Shown here: positions 751 to 23,531 of the stretch, piece after piece
Position numbering within the stretch: position 1 is the first letter of the stretch
Layout: every line of letters starts with the position of its first letter
NCBI GenBank assembly: GCA_022823725.1
Contig: JAJEHL010000050.1
Location: 62,001 to 126,000 of the forward strand
Direction of reading: 5' to 3'
Length of the DNA: 64,000 nucleotides
Source: Candidatus Latescibacterota bacterium
GTDB taxonomy: Bacteria > Latescibacterota > UBA2968
Translations under genes and position numbers: made by a program
The notes under the pieces: model-generated
Seen by the model: the letters and a program-made list of their open reading frames with translations, nothing else
Told to the model about the DNA's origin: nothing
The model's database searches: none

Positions 751-1341
751 TCAGCCGGGCTGTAAGCCGAGTTTGCGAAATTCGCTTTCGAGTTGGCGGC
801 GGGCGCGGCACAGCCAGGTTTTTACGGTTCCCAACGGAACGCGAAGTGCCTGTGTGATTTCTTCGTAGGACCAGTCCATGACGTAGCGCAGCCACATGGC
901 TTTGCGATAGCGTTCGGGCAAGTTTTGAATGCTTTGGTGGACCAATTCTATGCGTTCGCGTTTTTCGACTATTTGGTCTGGTAGCGTGCCGGGGATGATG
1001 TCGCGGATGACGTTGCGAACGATTTCGGGGTCTTCGGTTTGATAGACCCAGTTTTGCCGAACTTGCTGCGAGCGCAGGTGTGAGCGATAGACGTTGAGGG
1101 CAATTTGCGTGAGCCAGGTCGAAAATGCCGCCTGGCCTTTGAATGTGTGGAGCGAGCGATAGGCGCGGAAAAATGTGTCTTGCATCAGGTCGTCAACAGT
1201 GTCGCGGTCCGAAATGCGCTGTGCGAGGGTGCCGTAGATCTGACTTTGATATTTGTGGTAGAGCGTTTCAAAGGCTCGGCGGTCGCCCGAGAGGGATGCG
1301 CGAATCAGCGTTTGATCCTGTGTTTTCACTTTTTTCTCCAT
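751..1341 (-). CDS. ECF-family RNA polymerase sigma factor
   Basis: A 196-residue sigma-70 family protein of ECF size. Region 2 is visible around residues 25-90 (FETLYHKYQSQIYGTL, then DTVDDLMQDTFFRAYRSL). Region 4 lies around residues 125-185 (LPERYRKAMWLRYVMDWSYEEI, then the recognition helix VPLGTVKTWLCRARRQL). ECF factors redirect RNA polymerase to envelope-stress promoters and are normally held by an anti-sigma factor. No typical anti-sigma gene is adjacent; the membrane proteins of this operon are the only candidate partners. The start has no clear Shine-Dalgarno site. A short GACGGA/TCCGTC hairpin lies between this gene and the upstream small gene. Its place in a pspA operon is the informative context. 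Confidence 0.93.
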   Translation of the reverse strand: MEKKVKTQDQTLIRASLSGDRRAFETLYHKYQSQIYGTLAQRISDRDTVDDLMQDTFFRAYRSLHTFKGQAAFSTWLTQIALNVYRSHLRSQQVRQNWVYQTEDPEIVRNVIRDIIPGTLPDQIVEKRERIELVHQSIQNLPERYRKAMWLRYVMDWSYEEITQALRVPLGTVKTWLCRARRQLESEFRKLGLQPG

Positions 1342-5561: not shown

Positions 5562-7748
5562 TTACGGAGAAAATCGCTTTAACCGCAGGGCATTGGTGAC
5601 AACGGAGACAGAAGAGAGGGCCATAGCAGCTGCGGCGAGCATGGGACCACCCAGGGGATTGAGCAGGCCCAACGCAGCAACGGGAATGAGCAGGGTGTTG
5701 TAGGCAAATGCCCAGAAGAGATTTTGGCGAATGACGCGCATGGTTTGCCGCGATAGCCGGATAGATGTGGCTATGGCCGATAGGTTGCCCGACATGAGGA
5801 TCATGCCCGCGCTTTCTATGGCAATGTCTGTGCCCGAACTCAGGGCGATGCCGACATTGGCCTGGGCGAGTGCGGGGGCGTCGTTGATGCCATCGCCAAC
5901 CATGCCCACGTTTACATTTCTTTTTTGGAGTTGCGCGATTTTGTGCGCTTTGTCCTGGGGCATAACTTCGGCAAAGACCTGATCAATGTTGAGCTGTTGC
6001 CCAATGGCTTTGGCCGTGCGCGCATTGTCGCCTGTCACGAGGGAGACTTCAAGGTTCAGGTGCTGGAGGTCTTGAACGGTTTGCGCGGCGTCGGCTTTCA
6101 GGTTGTCTGAAATAGCGATAAGGCCTGCGGGCTGATCATTGACGGTGACGAATACGGCGGTTTTGCCCTCGGCTTCGAGTTTTTCGGCTGGATATTTTGC
6201 GCGGTCAGATACGGTGCGTGGGTTGCCGAGCACGACGCGCTGTCCGTCAATTGTAGCGGCGACGCCAACGCCGGGCAGGGCTTCAAAATCTGTGGTTGGA
6301 GGCAGAGAGAGGTTGGCTTCTTGTGCGGCGCGAACAATGGCTTCGCCAAGGGGATGTTCCGATCCTTTTTCTGCAGAGGCTGCGAGTGTGAGTATGTGAT
6401 CGCGGTGGTAATTTTCTGAGGGGATAATATCGGTGACAGTGGGTTTTCCCTCTGTTAGTGTGCCTGTTTTGTCCAGGACTATGGCATTGAGGCGGTGTGC
6501 ATTTTCGAGCACATCGCCTCCTTTTATGAGGATGCCGAGTTGCGCGCCTCGTCCTGTGCCGACTGCGATGGCAGTAGGCGTGGCCAATCCCATTGCACAA
6601 GGGCATGCGATGATGAGGACGACTACGGCATTGATGAGGGCAGTTTCGATCCCAGAGCCAGAAATCCACCACAGGGCGCAGGTCAGCAGGGCGATGGCAA
6701 AGATTATCGGGACAAAGATACTGGCGACGCGGTCGGCGAGATGTTGTATGGGTGCTTTGGATCCCTGTGCTTGTCGCACGAGATCAATGATTTGAGACAA
6801 GACTGTATCGGCACCGATCTGTGTTGCCTGGAAGATAAAACTACCGGTTGTGTTGCGCGTGCCGCCTGTGACTTTGTCGCCTGATTGTTTGTCAACGGGT
6901 AGGGATTCGCCCGTGAGCATGGATTCGTCAATTGCGGATTGTCCGTTTTGTATGAGGCCATCGACCGGGATATTTTCACCGGGCCGAACGCGAATGTGGT
7001 CGCCGACCTGGATGTGTTCAACGGGCGTTTCAACATCCCGACCGTTGCGGACGATGTGGGCGGTTTTGGGGCGCAGGTCGAGAAGTTTTCGAATGGCGGA
7101 TGATGTTTGGCCCCTGGCGCGCGTTTCGAGCAGACGACCGAGCAGGACGAGTGTAATGATCATGGCGGAGGTGTCGAAGTAGGTCTGGATATTCTGCGTG
7201 CCGAGTGGGATAAAGGTTACCGCGGCGCTGTAAAAGTAAGCGGCGAGGGTTCCCGCAGCGATCAGGCTGTTCATGTCGGCTGTGCGATGGCGCAGTGCAG
7301 CCCATGCCCCTTTGAGAAAACGCCAGCCACATAAGAATTGGACCGGTGTGGCCAATGCAAAGAGCAATATGTGAATGTGATGTGGGGAGATGTTCGCGCC
7401 CCACAGAGTGCGAGTCATGCCGGTTGCCATGATGAGTGCGGAGAGGATTGCGGCGATAGAGAATAGAGAACGCAACTTGCGATATTCGATTGTGCGTCCG
7501 ATTTGTTCGGCGTCTTCCGAAGTGTGAGGAGAGGCTTCGTAACCGGCACTGGAGACGGCATCCATGAGGGTGTTTATGAGGACGGCTTTGTGGTGAACCG
7601 TGGCCTGATGGGTGGCAAAGTTGACCTGGGCATCTGCGACGCCGGGAACGGTTTTGAGGGTATCTTCAACCCGCGCCACACACGCGGCACAACTCATGCC
7701 TTTGATGGAGAGGGTCAGGGTTTGCATGGGGTGTTCGGTTTTTGTCAT
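5562..7748 (-). CDS. copA: copper-exporting P1B-type ATPase
   Basis: A 728-residue heavy-metal ATPase. It has one N-terminal HMA domain with GMSCAAC (Cys20, Cys23), the membrane metal site CPCAMG near residue 381, the phosphorylation motif [11 protein letters not shown] near 424, an HP motif (GSEHPLG) and the hinge [10 protein letters not shown]. The CPC plus single GMxCxxC pattern is that of Cu+ exporters. The chosen ATG at 7748 lies 2 nt after the stop of the upstream aminopeptidase gene, so the two are co-transcribed; the longer open frame would overlap that gene by 70 nt and adds only a basic tail. No copper regulator or chaperone is adjacent. Confidence 0.95.
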
Positions 7749-7750
7749 GT

Positions 7751-8869
7751 TTATTTGAGGTTTTCGGGGTTTAGTTCTTTGAGGTCCTCTACGACAAAAC
7801 GCCCGTCTTTGCGAATGCACTCGTCGTCGAAGTAGATTTCTCCACCGCCGTATTCGGGGGTTTGGATGAAGACCATGTCCCAGTGTACGGCAGAGCGGTT
7901 GCCGTTGTCGGCGTCATCTTGATAGGCATTGCCAGGTGTAAAGTGGAATGATCCCGATATTTTTTCGTCGAAGAGAATATCGAGCATAGGCGATGTGATA
8001 TAGGGGTTGAATGCGATGGCAAATTCACCAATATAACGCGCACCTTCATCTGTGTTGAGAATATCGTTGAGTTTGGCGGTATCACTTGCGGTCGCGTCGA
8101 TGATTTTGCCCGCTTGGAAGGTCAGTTTAATATCTGAGAATGTCGTGCCGCGATAGATGGTGGGGACGTTGAAATGGATGTGACCATTTACGGAGTCTTT
8201 AACCGGTGCGGTGAAGCACTCGCCATCGGGGATGTTGCGAAGCCCCGTACACGGTCTGACCGGTATGTCTTTGATGCTAAAGGACAGATCGGTATCGACT
8301 CCTGTGATGCGCACGCGATCGGTTTGTTCCATGCGTTTTTTAAGGGGGACAACAGCTTCGGCCATTTTGCCATAATCGAGCGTGCAGACGTCAAAATAAA
8401 AATTTTCAAATGCTTCGGTACTTTGTTGCGCCTGTTGTGCCATCGAAGGCGTGGGCCATCGCAAAACCACCCATTTTGTGTGCGGTACGCGGATGGCAAA
8501 ATGCACGGGTTTGAGCCAGTGTTTTTCGTAGATATCCATCGCGGCACTGGATACATCTGATAATTCTGAGATGTTGCGGCTGCCGCGCAGGCCGATGTAG
8601 GCCTGTACGCGCTTCATTCGGTAGGCTTCATAATCGCCTGCTTGTTGCATGGTGGCGATATCGCCTGCGTGGATGAGTTCGCGTTGGATACGGTTGTTTT
8701 TAATGGATATTAGGGGAATACCACCGACTTCGCGCACTTTGCGAATGAGTGCAATGATCATGTCTTCGGGCATGTCGTAGCCCTGTATGAGGACGGTTTC
8801 GCCCGCTTGTAACTTTGTGGAATGGCGAATTAAGACGTCGGCGAGTTTTTCAAGTCGGGGATCTTGCAT
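7751..8869 (-). CDS. M29-family metalloaminopeptidase
   Basis: A 372-residue protein of the thermophilic aminopeptidase (AmpS/PepS, M29) family. The N-terminal half carries the ETVLIQG and VREVGGIPL blocks. The C-terminal half carries the metal ligands: [19 protein letters not shown] and AVHWDMV, supplying Glu, Glu, His, Tyr, His and Asp for the di-metal site. These enzymes remove N-terminal residues from peptides in the cytoplasm; no signal peptide is present. The ATG at 8869 has AGGAG 5 nt upstream, preferred over an upstream in-frame ATG. The following copA starts 2 nt after the stop. Confidence 0.9.
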
Positions 8870-12653: not shown

Positions 12654-12851
12654 AGTTTGTGACCTGTGGAATTGTTTTTGAGGGACGGGGGTTGTTAGAC
12701 AGACTAAATAATCTATAAAGGATACCGAAAATAAGCAACCAAATTTTCCTCCGCAGGCGGGCGTTTAAATTCATCCCGATCTTGTGCATGCCAAAAAAAA
12801 GTAACATTTTGATGTGTGTGATGTGTTAAAAAATAAAGCGATGGGTTGTTT

Positions 12852-13319
12852 ATGAATGTCGAATTGTTATATCAAAAATACGGTCCCATGGTGTTGCGTC
12901 GCTGTCGGCGGTTGTTGCGAGATGAAGATCGCGCGATGGATGCTATGCAGGATGTGTTTGTGCGGGTATTGCAACGCGGGGATCGTTTGAAAGTGACCTA
13001 TCCGTCGAGTTTGCTATATCGCATTGCGACCAATGTGTGTTTGAATCGCATTCGTGACCAGCGGCTCGATCTGCCGGGCGATGCAGTGTTGGTGCATATT
13101 GCAGGGATGGAAAATCCAGAACCTCGATTGGATGCCCGGGCGATGCTGGACCGGCTTTTTGCGCGACATAGAGATTCGACGCGAACAATTGCGGTTTTGC
13201 ATTTTGTGGATGGCTTCACATTGGAGGAAGTCGCTCAAGAGGTTGGGATGTCGGTTTCTGGGGTGCGAAAGCGGTTGCGGGGGTTGCGAGAATCGCTGGA
13301 GAAGTTGGAGGAACTATGA
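12852..13319 (+). CDS. ECF-family RNA polymerase sigma factor (caspase locus)
   Basis: A 155-residue ECF sigma factor. Region 2 covers about residues 5-70 (YGPMVLRRCRRLLRDEDRAM, DAMQDVFVRVLQ) and region 4 about residues 100-150 (VLHFVDGFTLEEVAQEVG, then MSVSGVRKRLRGLRESL). The ATG at 12852 is preferred over an upstream TTG. Its stop overlaps the start of the next gene (ATGA), the classic coupling of a sigma factor with its anti-sigma factor. The five genes to 19073 are closely packed on this strand and are probably its regulon or its operon. The 198-nt gap before it holds no obvious promoter; a GTAAC at about 12803 could be an ECF -35 element. Confidence 0.92.
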   Translation: MNVELLYQKYGPMVLRRCRRLLRDEDRAMDAMQDVFVRVLQRGDRLKVTYPSSLLYRIATNVCLNRIRDQRLDLPGDAVLVHIAGMENPEPRLDARAMLDRLFARHRDSTRTIAVLHFVDGFTLEEVAQEVGMSVSGVRKRLRGLRESLEKLEEL

Positions 13320-14074
13320 CGAAGCGACGCGGTGATTGGATACTGGAGCGTTTTCGGCTGAATGAATTGCCGGAAGAAGAAATGAGAGCTATTCAAGGGG
13401 CACTGGATGAGGACCCGGATTTGAGCGCGCGCCTGGAAGCATTGGAGGGGTCAGATCGAGAGATTCACGCGTCCTATCCGACTGAGTGGGTGGCGCGGCA
13501 GGTGGCGCGTCGATTGGAGAGACGAGAGGCGCCGAGTATATCGCGGTTCGGTCCGCGTTTGGCATTGGCCGCGGTGGTGTTGCTCGCCGTTGTTTTTTCG
13601 ATCTATTTGCCGGGGCCTGAGGTGCCACCGACCTGGGATCGGAGAGGTATGGATGGCATCCGATTAAAAGGCGTAAAGCCGGATTTGTTGTTGTATCGAA
13701 AAAGAGCGTCTGAGGTTGAACAATTGGCGGATAGCAGTGTGGCTTATGCGGGCGATTTGATTCAGATTTTTTATCGCGCAGCGGGCAAGCCTTTCGGAGC
13801 GATTGTGTCTGTGGATGGGCGCGGTACTGTGACGCGGCATTTGCCCGCATCGGGAACAAGCGCCGTGCGTTTGATACAGGGCGACCCCGTGTCGCTGGAT
13901 TATTCTTACGAGCTGGATGATGCCCCAAAGTGGGAGCGGTTTTATTTTTTGACAGCAGATACGTCTTTTGACGTGCGCGATGTGGCACAAGCGGCAAAGG
14001 AAGGGCTTGATTCATTGCGGGTGGGAAGAGAGTTTGAGCAGTTTGCCATTACGCTTTACAAGGGAGTGGAGTGA
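13316..14074 (+). CDS. probable membrane anti-sigma factor with DUF4384-like periplasmic domain
   Basis: A 252-residue protein. The cytoplasmic part (1-78) is helical, with EDPDLSARLEALEG typical of anti-sigma domains. One transmembrane helix follows (about 82-98, LALAAVVLLAVVFSIYL). The periplasmic part (about 105-252) has GDLIQIFYRAAGKPFGAIVS and VSLDYSYELDD, resembling the DUF4384-type domain that often accompanies caspase-like proteins in bacteria. The ATGA overlap with the sigma gene and the TGATG overlap with the caspase gene tie the three together. No zinc-binding HxxxCxxC motif is seen, so it is not a ZAS-type anti-sigma. Cleavage by the neighbouring proteases is an attractive but untested idea. 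Confidence 0.72.
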   Translation: MTKRRGDWILERFRLNELPEEEMRAIQGALDEDPDLSARLEALEGSDREIHASYPTEWVARQVARRLERREAPSISRFGPRLALAAVVLLAVVFSIYLPGPEVPPTWDRRGMDGIRLKGVKPDLLLYRKRASEVEQLADSSVAYAGDLIQIFYRAAGKPFGAIVSVDGRGTVTRHLPASGTSAVRLIQGDPVSLDYSYELDDAPKWERFYFLTADTSFDVRDVAQAAKEGLDSLRVGREFEQFAITLYKGVE

Positions 14075-15645
14075 TGTTGCGTCAATGGATAATGTTGTTG
14101 GGGATTGGGCTGCTGTTATGCGCTCAGGGAATTGAGGCGACGCAAGTTGTGCGGCGTTTTGTGCTGGCGGCTGGCGCAAATTTTGGTGGAGAAAAACGCA
14201 CGCCTCTGCGTTATGCCGTATCGGATGCAGTGCATTTTGCTCGTGTTTTAGAGATGATGGGCGGGGTTGACTCTGAGGATCAATTTTTATTGGCTGAGCC
14301 GAGCTTGAAAAATTTTAAACGGGTTTTGTCGGATTTGCAAACCCGGGTTATAAAAGCATCCCAATCGTCGAGTCGCATCGAAGTTGTTCTGTATTATTCC
14401 GGGCACGCCGATGAAAATGGATTGCTGTTGGGAGAAGACCGGTTGACCTATCGCGCTTTGCGCGATGCAATGAATAGCGTTCAGGCGGATGTGCATATTA
14501 CTGTGCTCGATGCGTGTGCTTCGGGCGCTATTACGCGCCTGAAAGGCGGGCAAAGGCAAAAAGCCTTTATGGTCGATACGTCGTCGGATATGCGGGGGTA
14601 TGCATTTTTGACTTCGAGTTCAGAAAATGAGGCGGCACAAGAATCGGATCGCATTCGCGGGTCGTTTTTCACGCATTATCTGGTGTCGGGGCTTCGAGGT
14701 GCAGCAGATGTGACTGGGGATGGCAAGGTGACACTCAGCGAAGCGTATGCGTTTGCATTTCGCAATACGTTGAAGCGAACGGAAAAAACGCAGGGAGGAG
14801 CACAGCATCCGGCTTATGATATTAAAATGACGGGCACAGGTGATGTGGTGATGACCGATGTGCGAGAGACATCGGCGAGTTTGATTCTATCAGATGAGTT
14901 GAATGGCCGATTTTTTGTGCGCAATTCGCAGGAGCTACTGGTGGCAGAGCTGGACAAGACCGCCGGGCAAACGCTCGAGTTGGGATTAGAACCCGAGGTT
15001 TATGACATTCATTTTGAACAGCGAACGCAATTGTTGCATTCAAAGGTCGCGTTGAAAAGGGGTGAGCGATTTTTGCTTGAGAATCGGCATTTTCGCTCTC
15101 AAGTGCGCGAAAAAACCACGAGCCGAGGACCTGCGTTGAAGAAACCAGCAACCGGGAAATCTGTCCGGCCTCGCTATCCACACAGGCTATCCGGCAGATG
15201 GCGTCTTGAACGCAGCAGGGGTGTCTGGCAACTGGGGGATGATAGCAAGGCCTGGATTTTTGGATTCTGGCCCACAGAACATGTTTCGATCAATTATTCT
15301 CGTTCGGGATTTTCGTTTTCCGACGACGATACAAAAACGGGCGTGTCATCTGAACTGGTCAGTCTGCGTATTTATATGCCTTTGAATATGTGGGGTTCAC
15401 CTTTGCGCCCTTATGCCGAAGGAGGCGTTGGTCGATACACGGGTAAAGTATTGGATGAGAATGTCGATGAGGTGAATGGATTGTATTGGGGAGGTGGACT
15501 GGATGTGCCGTTTTTGAAGTCTTTTGTTCTGGGTGGACGCATAGGCTATAATCGGTTTGTCGAGCCTTTTGCTGTGCCGGTGAATGGGCAAACGGATTAT
15601 AGTGGAATGGAGTACAGCGTGGGGTTGGGTTTGTTGTTATTCTGA
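14074..15645 (+). CDS. exported caspase-like (C14) protein with C-terminal outer-membrane barrel, copy A
   Basis: A 523-residue protein. The signal peptide is about 1-23, and a caspase/metacaspase-type p20 domain spans about 27-255. The catalytic dyad is visible as His111 (YYSGHADENG) and Cys148 (VLDACASGA). An EF-hand-like loop, DVTGDGKVTLSEA, follows, as in calcium-regulated metacaspases. Residues about 270-370 form a beta-rich linker. The last 150 residues alternate like a small outer-membrane barrel and end in Phe (SVGLGLLLF), with Pro/Tyr/Gly turns (RPYAEGGVGRY). The start follows GGAG closely and overlaps the anti-sigma stop by one base. The predicted place is the periplasmic face of the outer membrane. 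No known protein with this exact architecture comes to mind. Confidence 0.82.
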   Translation: MLRQWIMLLGIGLLLCAQGIEATQVVRRFVLAAGANFGGEKRTPLRYAVSDAVHFARVLEMMGGVDSEDQFLLAEPSLKNFKRVLSDLQTRVIKASQSSSRIEVVLYYSGHADENGLLLGEDRLTYRALRDAMNSVQADVHITVLDACASGAITRLKGGQRQKAFMVDTSSDMRGYAFLTSSSENEAAQESDRIRGSFFTHYLVSGLRGAADVTGDGKVTLSEAYAFAFRNTLKRTEKTQGGAQHPAYDIKMTGTGDVVMTDVRETSASLILSDELNGRFFVRNSQELLVAELDKTAGQTLELGLEPEVYDIHFEQRTQLLHSKVALKRGERFLLENRHFRSQVREKTTSRGPALKKPATGKSVRPRYPHRLSGRWRLERSRGVWQLGDDSKAWIFGFWPTEHVSINYSRSGFSFSDDDTKTGVSSELVSLRIYMPLNMWGSPLRPYAEGGVGRYTGKVLDENVDEVNGLYWGGGLDVPFLKSFVLGGRIGYNRFVEPFAVPVNGQTDYSGMEYSVGLGLLLF

Positions 15646-15657
15646 TCGGAGGGGAAT

Positions 15658-17334
15658 ATGTACCGAATGATTTTGTACGCGATTGTCATTTGTTTTTTTA
15701 TTCCTGAAATTGCGAATGCACAAGAGGATATTACCAGTCATTTGGGTTATGTGGAGGTCGAGGCATTGGATGTGTTCAAGGCCAAAGATGTCAATGTGGA
15801 TGTGTCTATTGGACAATTGATGATAAAAGAGGTCGCTGAAAGGGTCAGAAGGAAAAATAAAAAAGTTGGTGAAGTCTTATCAGATCTGGAGTTGGTGCGC
15901 GTATATGTTCTGTCGGTTGATGAGGTTGAAATGCGTATGGACAAAATTGCGCGGTATTTAGATGCGATGGGTTGGGAGATAACCGTTCAGTCACGGAAAA
16001 AACGCGAGCGCGTGTCGGTGTATTTGCAGAAGGAGGCGGATGATACTATTGGTCTGTTTGCTATGGTCCATGATCGCAAGGCTGGCACTTTAACGCTGGT
16101 CAATGTGGTAGGCGTTGTTCAAGTTGATAAGATGGGAACTGTTGGTCGAGAATTAGAGGTGGAGGCGTTTGATCGCGTTGTTCGTTTGTTACCTGGATAT
16201 AAGCTGTCTGTCTCTAACGTACATCACCGCCTGGGGTCCTGGAAGGCGCGTATCGCCCCATTTTCGAATATTTGGCGCGTTGATCACGAAGATTTTTTGG
16301 TGCGTTACAATCGAGTGGATGGCGTTTTTATTGGCTGGCGCTTGCCATTGAAATATCGCACTTCGCGCGGCGTGGCGCACTATGGCGAAGTGGGGTATGG
16401 ATTTGGGAGTAATCGATGGGATTATCAGGCTGGTGCTGAGTTCTTTACTTTTTCTGGTGCATCAAAGGACAACATAGCTGGGCTGGGTTTTGAACTTCAC
16501 GGGTTGACAAATACGCAAGATAATTGGCGAATTGATGAGATAGAAAATTCGATTTTTGCCTTTTTATTGCGCCGCGATTTTAGAGACTATTATCGTCGAG
16601 AGGGCGTCAGTACTTATGTTTTTCGAGATTTTGGCCGGATGGTAGAGGTTCGGGGACAGGTGGGTGTAGATGTTTTCGAGTCGATGCCCAATAGCGTTTC
16701 CTGGAATCTATTTGGTGATCGATGGGGCAGTCGAATGAATTTTCGACCCAATCCTGAGATTGAGGCCGGGCAAATGCGCAATGTGATGGGTACACTACAG
16801 TTAGATAGTCGTGCGAGCCGACGGTCTCGACAGGGATGGCGTTTAATGGCACAGGCTGAGAAAGCAGGAGGTATTTTGGGAGGCGATTTTGATTTTGAAC
16901 GGTATATCATAGATGTGCGCCGCTATCAGTATGCGGGGCGTGGAACTCAGTTGAATTTGCGCGTTCGTGCGGGCACTGGACAAGGACGTGTGCCCGTGCA
17001 ATTTCTCTATCGTCTCGGGGGTCCTTCTTCGCTTAGAGGGTATGGATTGAATGCTTATGTGGGAGATCGCATGGTGTTGTTTAATGCGATTTATTGGATT
17101 GATGGCGAAGCCCATTTTAGGGATGACTGGCCTTTAGATGATGTTGCCATCGGTGTGTTTTTTGATGCGGGTAAGGCGTGGTTTTCAGATTGGGAGCCTG
17201 TTGGTACACGGGTTGTAACGAGCGCGGGATTGGGATTAAAGACCGATAATTTGCGCGTGTTTTTTGCCCGGCCACTGGATGCGAATGATCCGGTTGATTG
17301 GCGGGTTTGGGTGCGGTTTCGTCGGGCATTTTAG
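15658..17334 (+). CDS. DUF4252-like domain fused to Omp85/BamA-type barrel
   Basis: A 558-residue protein with a signal peptide (about 1-21). The N-terminal domain (about 25-180) opens with EVEALDVFKAKDVNVDVSIG and resembles DUF4252, a small exported domain found beside ECF sigma genes. From about residue 195 to the end it is a large beta-barrel. LGGPSSLRGYGLN near residue 458 matches the Omp85 signature (GG..SLRGY), and the chain ends in Phe (RFRRAF). Ordinary BamA/TamA proteins have POTRA domains in place of this N-terminus; none is evident. GGAGGGG lies 5 nt before the ATG. It sits between two caspase-barrel genes, implying a shared surface task. Confidence 0.72.
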   Translation: MYRMILYAIVICFFIPEIANAQEDITSHLGYVEVEALDVFKAKDVNVDVSIGQLMIKEVAERVRRKNKKVGEVLSDLELVRVYVLSVDEVEMRMDKIARYLDAMGWEITVQSRKKRERVSVYLQKEADDTIGLFAMVHDRKAGTLTLVNVVGVVQVDKMGTVGRELEVEAFDRVVRLLPGYKLSVSNVHHRLGSWKARIAPFSNIWRVDHEDFLVRYNRVDGVFIGWRLPLKYRTSRGVAHYGEVGYGFGSNRWDYQAGAEFFTFSGASKDNIAGLGFELHGLTNTQDNWRIDEIENSIFAFLLRRDFRDYYRREGVSTYVFRDFGRMVEVRGQVGVDVFESMPNSVSWNLFGDRWGSRMNFRPNPEIEAGQMRNVMGTLQLDSRASRRSRQGWRLMAQAEKAGGILGGDFDFERYIIDVRRYQYAGRGTQLNLRVRAGTGQGRVPVQFLYRLGGPSSLRGYGLNAYVGDRMVLFNAIYWIDGEAHFRDDWPLDDVAIGVFFDAGKAWFSDWEPVGTRVVTSAGLGLKTDNLRVFFARPLDANDPVDWRVWVRFRRAF

Positions 17335-17363
17335 ATTATAGCGCAGAAGGAGGAAGAATCACA

Positions 17364-19073
17364 ATGCCTGGTCGCGTTTTGGCTCTTATGGTGGTACTCT
17401 GTGTTCTGATTGTTCAAGATCTATTTGCTGTAGATGGCGTGCAGCGTTGGGTTCTGGCGGTGGGTGCCAATGATGGTGGTGCAAAGCGCGAGACTTTGCA
17501 ATATGCTGTATCGGATGCTCAAAATTTTGTGCAGGTCATGGAAACAATGGGCGGTGTTGATGCTGGCGTTTTGTTATCCGATCCGCGCATTGAACATCTT
17601 GAGGAGGCTTTGCACGCGTTGCACAATCGGGTCGCATCTGCGGAAGCAGCGCGAAGAGAGGTTATTATCTATTATTCGGGCCACGCCGATGAAAATGGCC
17701 TTCGGTTGGGTGAATCGCTTTTTTCCTATGTACGTCTTCGCGATGCAATGGATCGGATGGAAGCCGAAGTGCATATTGCTATTTTGGATGCCTGTGCTTC
17801 TGGCGCAATTACGCGATTGAAGGGCGGACGACGTCAGAAAGCGTTTATGGTGGATGCGTCGTCGGATATGCGGGGGTATGCGTTTTTGACGTCGAGTTCC
17901 GAAAATGAAGCGGCGCAGGAGTCGGATGCGATTGGGGCGTCATTTTTTTCGCATTATCTGGTGTCGGGATTGCGCGGCGCAGCAGATGTGACTGGGGATG
18001 GGCGGGTTACGTTGAATGAAGCTTATCACTTCGCGTTTCAAAATACATTGGAGGGTACGGAGCGCACACAAGGAGGGGCGCAACATCCGGCTTATGATAT
18101 CAAGATGACGGGTACGGGCGATGTGGTGATGACGGATGTGCGGCAGACTTCGGCAGGATTGATTTTGTCGGAGGCACTTCAGGGGCGATTTTTTATTCGA
18201 AATGCCAATCGACAATTGATCGCAGAGTTGTTTAAGCCCGCCGGGCGGCGCGTTGAGTTGGGGCTGGAACCGGGGAAGTATCGCGTTCACATGGCTCGTC
18301 ATATCCAATCGGCTACTGCTTCGGTCGAATTGGAGATGGGACAACGCGAGGTGCTTGACGAAGCTCATTTTGAAATTATTGCGCGAGAAAGCACCACAAT
18401 GCGGGGTGGGATCAAGTATAGCGTAAAACGCTCTCGGGTTGAATTGCGCGGGGGGTATTGGAATCCAGGCGGAGAATCTACGACAATCACAGGCGGATTG
18501 GCGCGGCAAAGTGTAGAGAACTTGATGGGGTCCCTCGCTTATACCTATCAGCTAAACGAAAATTTGGCACTGATGGTTCGATGGGCGGGGTTGATTGCAG
18601 AGGTCAAAAATAATGTGGGTGCTCTGGGCACATCCCAGAGCGTTGTTATTGTTACGCCTCTGCTTTTTGGAGTAAGGTACTATTGGCCTTTGGCACCATC
18701 CCCTTTTCGTCCCTATGTTGTCGCAAGTGCGGGACCGTATTTTTTGCAAGATATTTTGCAAGATGCTCAAGGTAGTTGGCAATATGAACGAGATGAAGAA
18801 GACGAAGAAGACGAAGAAGACGACCGAGAATATAGAGGACAATTGGTGCAAGAGGTGAGGGGGCACGCCACTATCGGAACGTATGTGGGAGGCGGTGTTG
18901 ATTTTGCTATCGGAAGGTATTTAATGCTCGGCGCAAGTGCGGGCTATCACCTGATTGCGAATTTTGCAGAGCCAATAAGAGATCGCAAAAATTTCAGCGG
19001 TCCGGAATTGAGTATTAGTTTGAGTTTGTTGTGGGGGAAAGATGTGGGTGAGGCTAAGAGTATCCGCAGATGA
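17364..19073 (+). CDS. exported caspase-like (C14) protein with C-terminal outer-membrane barrel, copy B
   Basis: A 569-residue paralogue of the gene at 14074. The signal peptide is about 1-22. The dyad is His107 (YYSGHADENG) and Cys144 (ILDACASGA), and the EF-hand-like loop is DVTGDGRVTLNEA. A stretch of about 90 residues after the Cys (from SGAITRLKGG onward) is nearly identical to copy A, whereas the barrels differ strongly. The barrel (about 375-560) carries an acidic loop made of repeated Asp-Glu-Glu units around residue 478, absent from copy A, and a 10-residue tail after the last strand. The ATG at 17364 follows AGAAGGAGG by about 10 nt. Confidence 0.82.
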   Translation: MPGRVLALMVVLCVLIVQDLFAVDGVQRWVLAVGANDGGAKRETLQYAVSDAQNFVQVMETMGGVDAGVLLSDPRIEHLEEALHALHNRVASAEAARREVIIYYSGHADENGLRLGESLFSYVRLRDAMDRMEAEVHIAILDACASGAITRLKGGRRQKAFMVDASSDMRGYAFLTSSSENEAAQESDAIGASFFSHYLVSGLRGAADVTGDGRVTLNEAYHFAFQNTLEGTERTQGGAQHPAYDIKMTGTGDVVMTDVRQTSAGLILSEALQGRFFIRNANRQLIAELFKPAGRRVELGLEPGKYRVHMARHIQSATASVELEMGQREVLDEAHFEIIARESTTMRGGIKYSVKRSRVELRGGYWNPGGESTTITGGLARQSVENLMGSLAYTYQLNENLALMVRWAGLIAEVKNNVGALGTSQSVVIVTPLLFGVRYYWPLAPSPFRPYVVASAGPYFLQDILQDAQGSWQYERDEEDEEDEEDDREYRGQLVQEVRGHATIGTYVGGGVDFAIGRYLMLGASAGYHLIANFAEPIRDRKNFSGPELSISLSLLWGKDVGEAKSIRR

Positions 19074-19146: not shown

Positions 19147-20271
19147 ATGTGGAAATGGATGCTGTTCACCTTATTCCTGATTTCACTGTTGATTTACCCG
19201 CTTTCTGCACAGAACAACTTTTCCCTGTCGCTGGATGTGGATGGTTCTGCAGGCGATCAAGCAGTCACATCTTTGGATGTGTCTGCAAATGAAGTGATTG
19301 CCATTCAAATTTTTGGTAGAGATGTTCAGAATACAAATGGCATTACCACGCGCTTTGAATACGATGCGAGTCAAGTTGTTTACGAAGGGTTTGATGCGGG
19401 AAGTATTTTGCCGAATGCCCATGTGCTTTCAGAGCAAGGCACCAATCCGACCTTTGTAGGGATTGGCCTGGCGTCTTTTGGAAGTCAAGTCACTGTCAAC
19501 AGCGGTTTGGTTGGCACCATTCGCTTTCGCACGACAGCCGCGTTTTCAGGCACTGAGATTCGTCTGGTGCGTGGTGACTTTGTCCGGGGTGGACAAATTG
19601 AGACTGTGGTCCTGAATATACGCATTGCGTTGCAAGTTTCTGACGCGCCTTCTTCGGACTTTAACGGCGATGGGATAGTCAATCTTGCCGATTTTTTGCT
19701 GTTTGTATCCAGGTTTGGGTCACGTCAAGGTGATGGGATGTACGAAACGCTGTACGATCTGGATAGAGATAGTGTGATTGGAATTTCCGATTTTCTGATC
19801 TTTGTAAGCGATTTTGGCAAACGAGTATCATCACCCGTATCTCCTCCAGTGCCTCCGCCGCCTACTGGTTCAGTGACGATGCCAGGAGTCCGTCTCCTGC
19901 AATTGGCACAGAATTATGGCGATGTGGAATACCTGACATATTCTCCCGATGGTTCTCAGATCGCGTTTGTGTCGGAGCGTGGAGATAATGATGCGATTTA
20001 TGTGATGAATGCCGATGGTAGCAACCCCATCCGATTGACGCAGAATTATGACGATGTGGAATACTTGGCGTATTCTCCTGATGGTTCTCAGATTGCGTTT
20101 GTGTCGGAACGTGGAGATAATGATGCGATTTATGTGATGAATGCCGATGGTAGCAATCCCATCCGATTGACGCAGAGCTATGACGACATTGAATATCTCG
20201 CCTGGTCTTCCGATGGCTCGGAGGTTATCATTTTTTTAGATCGCTACGATGATGACTACGATGATGATTAG
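19147..20271 (+). CDS. secreted protein: cohesin-like, dockerin-like and TolB/PD40 repeats
   Basis: A 374-residue protein with a signal peptide (1-21, ending PLSAQ). Residues 22-165 are a beta-sandwich resembling cohesin domains (IAIQIFGRDVQNTNGITTRF, GLVGTIRFRTTAAFSG). Residues about 168-225 carry paired calcium loops (DFNGDGIVNLADFLLF, DLDRDSVIGISDFLIF) like a dockerin. After a Pro-rich linker come PD40/TolB-type blades (YSPDGSQIAFVSERG) of 44 residues, two full and one broken. The final blade ends in an Asp-rich tail. Too few blades remain for a closed propeller. AAGGAGG lies 6 nt before the ATG. It is probably a surface or extracellular adhesion protein. Confidence 0.75.
   Translation: MWKWMLFTLFLISLLIYPLSAQNNFSLSLDVDGSAGDQAVTSLDVSANEVIAIQIFGRDVQNTNGITTRFEYDASQVVYEGFDAGSILPNAHVLSEQGTNPTFVGIGLASFGSQVTVNSGLVGTIRFRTTAAFSGTEIRLVRGDFVRGGQIETVVLNIRIALQVSDAPSSDFNGDGIVNLADFLLFVSRFGSRQGDGMYETLYDLDRDSVIGISDFLIFVSDFGKRVSSPVSPPVPPPPTGSVTMPGVRLLQLAQNYGDVEYLTYSPDGSQIAFVSERGDNDAIYVMNADGSNPIRLTQNYDDVEYLAYSPDGSQIAFVSERGDNDAIYVMNADGSNPIRLTQSYDDIEYLAWSSDGSEVIIFLDRYDDDYDDD
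19909..20223 (+). repeat. 132-bp in-frame tandem repeat (PD40 blades)
   Basis: The 132-bp unit (44 codons) beginning at 19909 recurs at 20041 with only a few base differences, and a third partial, more diverged copy starts near 20173. This points to recent unequal exchange within the gene. Confidence 0.85.
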
Positions 20272-20453: not shown

Positions 20454-23400
20454 ATGGATAAACAAATCACTTTCTCTATTTCCTCACAAATAAGCCCCTT
20501 CCTTTTGAAAAGTGTTAAACAGGTCTTCAAAAAAGGGTTGTTATTTATAACCGCTCTGATATTGCTATTATTTGTAGGGCAAGCCTCTGCTGGGCCCAAT
20601 GCCAATGCAATTTTGTCGCTTGATTTGATTGCAGATGGGGGAACTGGCAATCAGAGAGATGATGGCGTCACCTCAGGTAAAGTGTCTGGACAGGACACAG
20701 ATAATACCGCACCGTCTCCCGATTTTGACGGGGATGGTGTGGTAGGTACCTCCGACTTTTTGTTATTTATAGATCGCTTCGGATCAATGCGTGGAGATGG
20801 GAGATATGAAGCGAAGTATGATCTGGATGGCAACGGTGTGATAGGGATTCCAGATTTTTCGATTTTGGTGGATAACTTCGGCAAGGAGATACCTAAATCT
20901 GGTGGCGATGTGGAGATGGTTTCTATTCCAGATTCGAATCTGCGTGCTGTGGTTGAGGACAGTCTGAGCAAGACGAGTGGTGCGCCGATTACCCGCGCAG
21001 AGATGGCGAGTTTGACGCGCCTTGAGGCACCGGATAAGACCATTAGCGATTTGACGGGTCTCGAGTTTGCAACCAATCTCACATGGCTGAGTCTTGCCCG
21101 CAACAGTGTCTCAGATGTATCCGCATTGTCTAACTTGACCAATCTGACACAGCTATATCTTCAGGGCAATGACCTATCAGACGTGTCTGCCTTGTCTGCC
21201 TTGACCAATCTGACCCGGCTGAGTCTTCAGGATAACAACATCTCTGATGTGTCTGCGCTATCTAACTTGACGAGCCTGACCCGGCTGTATCTTCATACTA
21301 ATCGCATCTCAGATGTATCTGCCCTTTCTAACTTGACCGATCTAACCACGTTGGATCTTCAGCGCAATCGCATCACAGATATATCTTCATTGTCTAACTT
21401 GACGAGCCTGACATGGCTGAGTCTTGCTCGCAATAGGATCTCAGATGTGTCTGTGTTGTCTAACTTCACAGCCTTGGCCCGGCTGTATCTTCAGGACAAT
21501 AGTATCTCGGACGTATCTGCACTATCCAATTTGACAGCGCTGACCCGGCTGAGTCTTCACACCAACAGCATCTCAAATATATCTGCGTTGTCTAATTTGA
21601 CCAATTTGACACAGCTATATCTTCAGAGCAATCGCATCTCGGACCTTGCTCCTCTGGTAGCAAATACAGGGCTGGATGCGGGAGATGTGGTCGATATAAG
21701 AAATAACCCCCTGAGTGAGACATCAATCAATACGCACATTCCAGCGCTTCAAAGCAGAGGGGTTACGGTAGAGTCTGATGCGACTGAAATAGTGTCTATT
21801 CCCGATGACAACCTGCGAGCTTTGATTGCGGATAGTCTTGGCAAGGCGAGCAATGCATCAATCATTCGTGCTGACATGGCGAGCTTGACGCGCCTTGAGG
21901 CTCCGGATAAGACCATTAGCGATTTGACTGGTCTCGAGTTTGCAACCAATCTAACATGGTTAAGCCTTGCCCGAAATAGTATCACAGATATATCCGCGCT
22001 GTCTAACTTGACCAATTTGACACAGCTATATCTTCAGAGCAACGGTCTATCAGATGTATCTTCGTTGTCTAACTTGACCAGTCTGACCCGGCTGAGTCTT
22101 CACACCAACAGCATCTCAAATATATCTGCCTTGTCTGCCTTGACGAGCCTGACCCGGTTGTATCTTCATACCAATAGCATCTCAGATATATCTGTACTAT
22201 CTAACTTGACCAATTTGACCACGTTGGATCTTCAGGGCAATAGTATCACAGATATATCTTCGCTGTCTAACTTGACCAGTCTGACATGGCTGAGTCTTGC
22301 TCGCAACAGTCTCTCAGATGTGTCATCACTGTCAGGCTTGACATCCCTGACCCGGCTGTATCTTCAGGGTAACAGTATCTCTTCTATATCTTCTTTATCT
22401 AACCTGACTGCTCTGACTCGACTGAGTCTTCAGACCAACAGCATCTCAAATATATCTGCGTTGTCTAACTTGACCAATTTGACACAGCTATATCTTCAGA
22501 GCAATCGCATCTCGGACCTTGCTCCTCTGGTCGCAAACACGGGGCTTGGCACAGGAGATAGAGTTAATGTAAATGGTAATCCCCTGAGCACGACTTCAAT
22601 CAACACACATATTCCAGCACTTCAGAACAGAGGGGTTACAGTAGAATTTGATGCTACTGCGGTATCCATACCCGATGTCAACCTGCGTGCTGTGATTGAG
22701 GACAGTCTTGGCAAGACGAGCGGTGTACCAATCACCCGGGCTGAGATGGCGAGCTTGACACGCCTTGCGGCACCGGATAAGACCATTAGCGATTTGACTG
22801 GCCTTGAGTTTGCAACCAATCTGACATGGCTGAGCCTTGCTCGTAACAGCATCTTGGATGTGTCATCACTATCAGGCTTGACAGCCCTGACTCGGCTGTA
22901 TCTTCAGGGTAACAGCATCTCGGATGTATCTGCGTTGTCTAACTTGACTGCTCTGACTCGACTGAGTCTTCAGACCAACAGCATCTCAAATATATCTGCG
23001 TTGTCTAACTTGACTAATTTGACGCAGCTATATCTTCGTACCAATAGGATCTCGGACCTTGCTCCACTGGTCGCAAACACCGGACTGGATACAGGAGATA
23101 TAGTTGATGTACGAAGTAATCCCCTGAGCGCGACATCAATCAACACACATATTCCTGCACTTCAAAGCAGGGGAGTTACGATAGAATTTGACAGAGGTAA
23201 TCAGGGCAATCAGGGCAATCAAGGTGATCAAGGTGGTCAGAACGATCAGGATAATTCAGATGATGACGATAGCGACGACGATAGCGACGATGATAAGGAT
23301 GACGACGATAAGGATGACGACAAAGACGACGATGATGACGACGATGATAAGGACGATGATAAGGATGATGACGATGATGACGACGATGATAAGGACGACG

Positions 23401-23531
23401 ATAAGGATGATGACGATGATGACGATAAGGACGATGATGATAAAAGAGAGGATACGGACCGTCGCCATCGCGCTGGGCGAACTTCTTCTGAGAAAATGGG
23501 TAAACAGCCTGCGCCAAAACCGACTAAGTAA
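20454..23531 (+). CDS. surface leucine-rich-repeat protein with dockerin-like module and Asp/Lys-rich tail
   Basis: A 1025-residue protein. An N-terminal hydrophobic signal (about 28-47, ITALILLLFVGQASAG) is followed by paired calcium loops (DFDGDGVVGTSDFLLF, DLDGNGVIGIPDFSIL, about 90-145). Three large LRR blocks then start near residues 155, 445 and 735, each opening with a SIPD.NLR cap-like helix segment and DLTGLEFATNLTWLSLARN. The repeats are 22 residues with the internalin pattern LTNLTQLYLQ.N.ISDVSAL. After the last block come GNQ repeats and about 75 residues of Asp with interspersed Lys, ending in a basic segment. Internalin-like proteins bind other surfaces. GGAGGG lies 5 nt before the ATG. 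Retention of the tail at the surface is unclear. Confidence 0.85.
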   Translation: MDKQITFSISSQISPFLLKSVKQVFKKGLLFITALILLLFVGQASAGPNANAILSLDLIADGGTGNQRDDGVTSGKVSGQDTDNTAPSPDFDGDGVVGTSDFLLFIDRFGSMRGDGRYEAKYDLDGNGVIGIPDFSILVDNFGKEIPKSGGDVEMVSIPDSNLRAVVEDSLSKTSGAPITRAEMASLTRLEAPDKTISDLTGLEFATNLTWLSLARNSVSDVSALSNLTNLTQLYLQGNDLSDVSALSALTNLTRLSLQDNNISDVSALSNLTSLTRLYLHTNRISDVSALSNLTDLTTLDLQRNRITDISSLSNLTSLTWLSLARNRISDVSVLSNFTALARLYLQDNSISDVSALSNLTALTRLSLHTNSISNISALSNLTNLTQLYLQSNRISDLAPLVANTGLDAGDVVDIRNNPLSETSINTHIPALQSRGVTVESDATEIVSIPDDNLRALIADSLGKASNASIIRADMASLTRLEAPDKTISDLTGLEFATNLTWLSLARNSITDISALSNLTNLTQLYLQSNGLSDVSSLSNLTSLTRLSLHTNSISNISALSALTSLTRLYLHTNSISDISVLSNLTNLTTLDLQGNSITDISSLSNLTSLTWLSLARNSLSDVSSLSGLTSLTRLYLQGNSISSISSLSNLTALTRLSLQTNSISNISALSNLTNLTQLYLQSNRISDLAPLVANTGLGTGDRVNVNGNPLSTTSINTHIPALQNRGVTVEFDATAVSIPDVNLRAVIEDSLGKTSGVPITRAEMASLTRLAAPDKTISDLTGLEFATNLTWLSLARNSILDVSSLSGLTALTRLYLQGNSISDVSALSNLTALTRLSLQTNSISNISALSNLTNLTQLYLRTNRISDLAPLVANTGLDTGDIVDVRSNPLSATSINTHIPALQSRGVTIEFDRGNQGNQGNQGDQGGQNDQDNSDDDDSDDDSDDDKDDDDKDDDKDDDDDDDDKDDDKDDDDDDDDDKDDDKDDDDDDDKDDDDKREDTDRRHRAGRTSSEKMGKQPAPKPTK

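Follow-up and report, generated by a model that had tools for sequence, protein, structure and literature searches.

The window analysed here, 64,000 nucleotides in full length, carries on its forward strand five tightly packed genes encoding an ECF sigma factor, a single-pass anti-sigma factor, two caspase-fold proteins and an Omp85-superfamily barrel. All five open reading frames with their starts and stops were rechecked, and the coordinates, the gene spacing and the intact His/Cys dyads (His111/Cys148 in caspase 1 and His107/Cys144 in caspase 2) agree with the initial annotation. The genes and the features within and around them are the following:

12799..12825, + strand: conserved promoter-like block 5' of the sigma gene, AAGTAACATTTTGATGTGTGTGATGTG, largely kept in same-genus relatives
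12852..13319, + strand: ECF sigma factor gene, ATG start (Pfam Sigma70_r2, 1.5e-15; NCBIfam sigma70-ECF, 1.9e-18)
13316..14074, + strand: single-pass anti-sigma factor gene, 4-nt overlap with the sigma gene (structure model, pLDDT 88)
13661..13672, + strand: R116-L-K118-G119 in the stalk of the anti-sigma factor, where site-1 cleavage is proposed; near-invariant in relatives
14071..15645, + strand: caspase 1 gene, starting at GTG 14071 or ATG 14074 and thus overlapping the anti-sigma gene by 4 or 1 nt (Pfam C14, 2.9e-11)
14404..14406, + strand: catalytic His111 of caspase 1 (numbered from ATG 14074), invariant in 79/79
14515..14517, + strand: catalytic Cys148 of caspase 1, invariant in 79/79
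14536..14550, + strand: R155-L-K157-G158-G159 in the caspase 1 loop that follows Cys148, where autoprocessing is proposed (conservation; disordered segment 156-169)
15124..15129, + strand: R351-G352, proposed release site in the caspase 1 linker before the barrel (conservation; disordered segment 353-366 starts here)
15199..15639, + strand: aa 376-522 of caspase 1, forming its 8-strand barrel (structure model and Foldseek)
15658..17334, + strand: Omp85-superfamily barrel gene with N-terminal DUF4252 (aa 48-159), 12-nt gap after caspase 1 (Pfam Omp85, 1.4e-10; DUF4252, 2.8e-5)
17364..19073, + strand: caspase 2 gene, 29-nt gap after the Omp85 gene (Pfam C14, 9.7e-10)

Among the five locus proteins, Sigma70_r2, both Peptidase_C14 domains, Omp85 and DUF4252 scored above the Pfam cut-off. 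The sigma protein consists of regions 2 and 4 only, which assigns it to the ECF group (Pfam, NCBIfam). The promoter-like block upstream of its gene occurs a single time in the genome when up to three mismatches are allowed; a genome-wide regulon search with this block accordingly returned no copy beyond the operon's own. The block may act as an autoregulated promoter of the sigma operon.

The model of the anti-sigma protein shows a 4-helix domain (aa 7-70), a transmembrane (TM) helix (81-97), a disordered stalk (102-117) and a beta domain (123-249). An N-terminal helical domain, a TM helix and an outer domain, encoded beside an ECF gene, make up the architecture of a single-pass ECF anti-sigma factor, and the protein appears from these features to be the predicted holder of the cognate sigma factor. 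Its NCBIfam match to putative anti-sigmaE (1.8e-6) lies under the cut-off, a Foldseek search with the model matched no structure at E <= 0.001, and the HxxxCxxC anti-sigma zinc motif is retained in diverged paralogues. The outer domain had been described as DUF4384-like; the window protein matches this profile weakly and below threshold, and the description finds its better support in the family, where 15 of 52 members match (best 5.6e-5).

Both caspases belong to Peptidase C14 according to their Pfam domains and dyads, to which the model of caspase 1 adds matches to caspase, legumain and metacaspase structures in the PDB, and they account for all Peptidase_C14 matches in the 5.3 Mb host genome. 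The model of caspase 1, built from an alignment of relatives (mean pLDDT 85), begins with a signal helix, which is followed by the caspase fold, then by a small beta domain and finally by an 8-strand barrel; the C-terminal residue of the protein is Phe. Foldseek placed the OprF barrel and legumain at the top, followed by NspA, caspase-6, OmpA and metacaspase chains (PDB), so that the C-terminal barrel assigned from sequence in the initial annotation is borne out for caspase 1. The model predicts that the protein is tethered to the outer membrane through this barrel, and since 8-strand barrels of the outer membrane normally have their two ends on the periplasmic side, the caspase domain would be located in the periplasm.

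Caspase 2 shares 63% identity with caspase 1 over residues 9-354 and carries the corresponding R151-x-K-G-G and linker R347-G348, followed by a diverged C-terminus. It is a local duplicate that varies between species and in some relatives does not lie directly downstream. One genome (G002) encodes a single hybrid caspase instead of two, which suggests that caspase 1 and caspase 2 are recombining duplicates. The remaining gene encodes an exported member of the Omp85 superfamily. Its N-terminus, previously regarded as new, is DUF4252 (E 2.8e-5, above cut-off), and no POTRA domain was matched in this protein (Pfam).

Conservation of the three-gene module

A scan of GTDB contigs yielded 78 further loci with about ten phylum labels, covering Latescibacterota, Gemmatimonadota, Acidobacteriota, Aminicenantes, Fibrobacterota, Chitinispirillales, Eisenbacteria, FCPU426, Spirochaetes, Proteobacteria and Myxococcales. 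In 72 of the 78, the sigma, anti-sigma and caspase genes are all adjacent, and the other six are interrupted by contig ends, either before the sigma gene (L053, L074, L078, L127) or before the anti-sigma gene (L086, L128). The linkage of caspase and sigma factor noted in the window thus holds in its relatives. Across 60 relatives, the presence of anti-sigma factor and caspase matches genome by genome, the partner being cut by the contig end in G011 and G038, and wherever the gene order of relatives was inspected the sigma, anti-sigma and caspase genes were neighbours. Distances between the proteins of the three genes correlate strongly, with r = 0.85 for anti-sigma factor versus caspase and 0/500 permutations as high. 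The high conservation of the locus in same-genus genomes and across phyla excludes chance. The named relatives are mostly Latescibacterota.

These results define the ECF sigma factor, the single-pass anti-sigma factor and the exported caspase as a conserved three-gene module of many Gram-negatives in about ten phyla. The original reading as a five-gene system had to be given up: the Omp85-DUF4252 gene is confined to the window's genus, where most genomes have it, and to G013; it occurs neither in G002 nor in the f4 family and, like caspase 2, is missing in most other lineages, which makes both genes lineage-specific additions to the module. No conserved genes were seen downstream of the module across phyla. 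The C-terminus of the caspase also depends on lineage, with the short barrel found here and, in other lineages, longer extensions of unassigned identity, one of them a region of GWQ-rich repeats.

A shared R-x-K-G motif in anti-sigma factor and caspase

The stalk of the anti-sigma factor varies in length and sequence among relatives, with R-x-K-G as the exception. In the aligned relatives, R116 is present in 73/75, K118 in 75/75 and G119 in 74/75 sequences. In the model, the motif is located at the end of the lowest-confidence segment, immediately ahead of the outer domain's first strand. Basic residues are common at membrane flanks, and since the motif abuts this strand, it might serve as a membrane-proximal charge or cap the beta domain structurally, with the caspase-loop copy being coincidental. 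We consider this extremely improbable, as the motif mostly lies about 9-21 residues past the TM helix (positions from an automatic picker of the first K/R-G), is near-invariant including the Gly, is absent from five other stalks in the genome and co-varies with the caspase loop, as described below.

In the caspase, R-x-K-G-G recurs at a fixed spacing, with R-x-K-G at Cys+7 to Cys+10 (R 77/79, K 79/79, G 78/79 and G 79/79), in or beside segment 156-169, which is one of only three low-confidence segments in the model. The loop after the catalytic Cys is where caspases are processed, and caspase-fold enzymes typically self-process there. A third basic-Gly pair, R351-G352 (R 73/75, G 73/75), is found in the linker that leads to the barrel, next to the low-confidence segment 353-366. 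Furthermore, the Asp of the D-x-C motif is invariant in the main-family alignment of 79 caspases; in metacaspases this residue contributes to the basic P1 pocket. Together with the basic loop sites, it suggests that the caspase would cut after basic residues. Cleavage after basic residues has been described for orthocaspases (PMC6426788, PMC8283722).

For the analysis of co-variation between the two sites, we used 97 modules, including 23 usable diverged sigma-linked paralogues from genomes with several caspases. Sites were read by the fixed Cys+9 spacing and by alignment column, and a single site (L198) was corrected by hand; the automatic picker was dropped for this purpose because it misread several stalks. 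The P1 residues of anti-sigma factor and caspase were K/K in 94 modules, R/R in two and mixed K/R in one (Fisher 6e-4), the P3 Arg status agreed between partners in 85/97 modules (Fisher 1e-4), and in the 23 diverged paralogues the paired sites were more alike than those of shuffled partners (p 5e-5), all three values overstating independence because the modules are related by descent. Examples include TARG in both partners (L191), RWRG in the anti-sigma factor with TRRG in the caspase (L190), the sites TAKG and QAKG (L164, L173) and RGKG in both partners (L166); both K-to-R modules (L190, L191) stem from one genome. L189 is discordant, with K in the anti-sigma factor and R in the caspase. In two further paralogues (L186, L201) the caspase lacks the Asp before the Cys, and that of L201 also lacks K-G in the loop.

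Two controls bear on the specificity of the motif. K-G at Cys+9/+10 was found in 0/17 caspases without a sigma neighbour, one of which has R-G, and K-G was found in the stalk of 0/5 other single-TM proteins encoded after ECF genes in the same genome.

The two R-x-K-G sites would be accounted for equally well by a third, trypsin-like protease of the periplasm that cuts both, thereby activating a caspase zymogen and destroying the anti-sigma factor, while the caspase has its substrates elsewhere. This would not require the module-by-module co-variation seen within the multi-module genomes G083, G100 and G064, the caspase is the only enzyme that is always linked, and the loop concerned is one in which enzymes of its fold typically process themselves; we therefore regard an outside protease as unlikely. 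It is distinctly unlikely that the caspase is instead the output of the sigma factor, that is, an effector secreted or displayed at the surface for processing, defence, killing or cell death, under sigma/anti-sigma control. Such a role would fit an exported protein whose gene takes a downstream place in the operon at almost all loci (in L082 it comes first), and bacterial caspases elsewhere have often been proposed as death enzymes (PMC3501461). It leaves unexplained, however, the invariant caspase-like site in the stalk, its co-variation with the caspase loop and the absence of the motif from unlinked caspases. The killing device once suggested for this locus was overstated or wrong, since nothing in our analysis supports killing.

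A gene order of barrel protein, anti-sigma factor and ECF sigma factor also resembles cell-surface signalling, in which case the caspase could act by binding without cutting, like the FecA/FecR transducer, and the shared motif would be a docking site. We judge this to be very unlikely: the motif sits in a disordered stalk and recurs in the caspase after the Cys, and the invariance of His and Cys in all main-family caspases indicates that catalysis is under selection.

A proposed proteolytic pathway and its relation to known systems

Taken together, the gene linkage, the domains, the conserved sites with their positions within or next to segments predicted as disordered, and the site co-variation point, at the level of sequence, to the caspase as the probable site-1 protease of its own anti-sigma factor, which would process itself at the same motif and may leave the outer membrane. 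The earlier suggestion that the caspases cut the anti-sigma factor hence receives strong, if indirect, support from the linkage, the shared R-x-K-G, the co-variation and the absence of the motif in unlinked caspases; from these we infer the cleavage itself and, with it, the proteolytic activity.

In the proposed pathway, an envelope or surface event would activate the caspase in the periplasm, and the loop that follows the catalytic Cys would be self-processed at R-x-K|G. The caspase may also detach from its barrel at x-x-R|G in the linker (R351-G352), which is a more speculative step. Because the barrel is predicted in the outer and the anti-sigma factor in the inner membrane, contact between them needs either release or a long reach, and release at R351-G352 would bridge the distance between the two membranes. 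The caspase would subsequently cut the anti-sigma factor at the matching R-x-K|G, the presumed scissile bond of site 1, which is placed in the short stalk on the periplasmic side of the inner membrane, and the remaining stub would become a substrate of an RseP-type site-2 protease. A homologue of such an M50 protease is encoded in the genome (PF02163, E 1.2e-65), which supports the scheme weakly, M50 proteases being near-universal. The sigma factor would thereby be set free, probably turning on its own operon. We see about even chances for the full extension of this scheme, in which the outer-membrane caspase is a self-releasing messenger that cuts its own loop and tether, crosses the periplasm and cuts the matching anti-sigma site, so that the module would constitute an undescribed membrane-to-membrane relay and a widespread class of caspase site-1 proteases.

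The function of most bacterial caspases is usually answered with "cell death". For the class described here, found in about ten phyla, a specific substrate and its scissile bond can be predicted, and the co-varying sites serve as a built-in control, so that one point mutation would be enough as a test. If the proposal is true, a caspase class joins the known site-1 proteases, and the caspase fold is used for envelope-to-gene signalling in many Gram-negatives.

The linkage of sigma factors and caspases is itself not new, because a 2012 survey by Asplund-Samuelsson and co-workers already noted that sigma-70 and metacaspase genes share operons in Myxococcus, Anaeromyxobacter, Haliangium, Sorangium, Ralstonia and Fibrobacter (PMC3501461). 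These operons are very probably of the same broad kind as the module described here; the accessible text of the survey gives co-occurrence only, to which our analysis adds the anti-sigma factor, the outer-membrane anchor, the shared motif and a proposed mechanism. In the literature searched, with many subscription papers outside it, we found no caspase acting as site-1 protease of an exported anti-sigma system, nor any mention of the anti-sigma partner, of the tether to the outer membrane, of the shared site or of its co-variation.

A combination of caspase and DUF4384 is known from cyanobacterial orthocaspases, in which DUF4384 is fused to the protease (23 examples, PMC8283722); here, the DUF4384-like domain is part of the anti-sigma factor and the caspase is separate, while basic P1 specificity, suggested here from sequence, would be common to both. 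In the Craspase system (type III-E, Csx29-Csx30-CASP sigma), caspase-like Csx29 cuts a sigma inhibitor, providing a cytoplasmic precedent for a caspase-superfamily protease directed against the inhibitor of an ECF-like sigma factor, as proposed here (PMC10028731). Craspase is, however, cytoplasmic, RNA-guided, of the CHAT family and bound to Cas7-11, whereas the protease at this locus is exported, C14-like and barrel-tethered, and Pfam revealed no TPR-CHAT or Cas matches among the tested locus proteins. With FecA/FecR/FecI, the module shares an outer-membrane barrel protein, an inner-membrane anti-sigma factor and an ECF sigma factor, but its barrel carries a protease, and neither a FecR domain nor a TonB-receptor domain was found in the five locus proteins (Pfam).

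Close parallels are DegS-RseA-RseP and RsiP/RsiW, in which a single-pass anti-sigma factor with a large outer domain keeps an ECF sigma factor bound, as predicted here. A site-1 cut in a short stalk, here proposed, and a site-2 protease, here represented by a homologue in the genome, complete the resemblance. In contrast to the serine protease DegS, PrsW or signal peptidase, the proposed site-1 enzyme is a caspase-fold Cys protease that shares the operon with its predicted substrate and carries an outer-membrane barrel. We therefore propose that the module represents the known regulated proteolysis of anti-sigma factors with a new class of protease.

Parallel modules within single genomes

Four genomes (G083, G100, G064 and G067) each encode four to six different caspases, several of which sit in parallel modules of sigma factor, anti-sigma factor and caspase. 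The site sequences, that is, the motifs in the anti-sigma stalk and in the caspase loop after the catalytic Cys, differ between these modules, which suggests that they form insulated parallel pathways.

Gene order and anti-sigma variants

In one relative (G002), the locus (L040) lacks the Omp85 gene and carries a single hybrid caspase (6462-8174), caspase 1-like at its N-terminus and caspase 2-like in the remainder, the arrangement expected if recombination between the two duplicates had removed the DNA separating them. Gene order is altered in L082, where the caspase gene precedes sigma and anti-sigma. The HxxxCxxC zinc motif is retained in the anti-sigma factors of L164, L173, L189 and L190; it has been lost from that of the window.

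Neighbouring genes in the window

19147-20271, exported cohesin-like/dockerin/PD40 (TolB-like) protein, next gene 3' of caspase 2
20454-23531, large exported leucine-rich-repeat protein
1063-1263, minus strand, further ECF-type sigma factor, at the window start

Adjacency of the first gene, which has its own ribosome site, to caspase 2 is conserved in two relatives (G004 and G007). The leucine-rich-repeat protein includes a dockerin-like segment, and its Asp/Lys-rich C-terminal tail is very long. The further sigma gene adjoins a gene for a two-TM protein (L242).

Caspase variants

In two sigma-linked caspases (L186, L201) the loop is longer and D-x-C is replaced by TCHSG or ACHSG, while their anti-sigma stalks retain RFKG and GVKG; they may represent a more distant branch of differing specificity. 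In four others (L042, L046, L047 and L049), the C-terminal barrel is replaced by a GWQ-V-x-N repeat region, which received no name from a Pfam scan of one sequence (L070) and which may resemble bacterial surface repeats.
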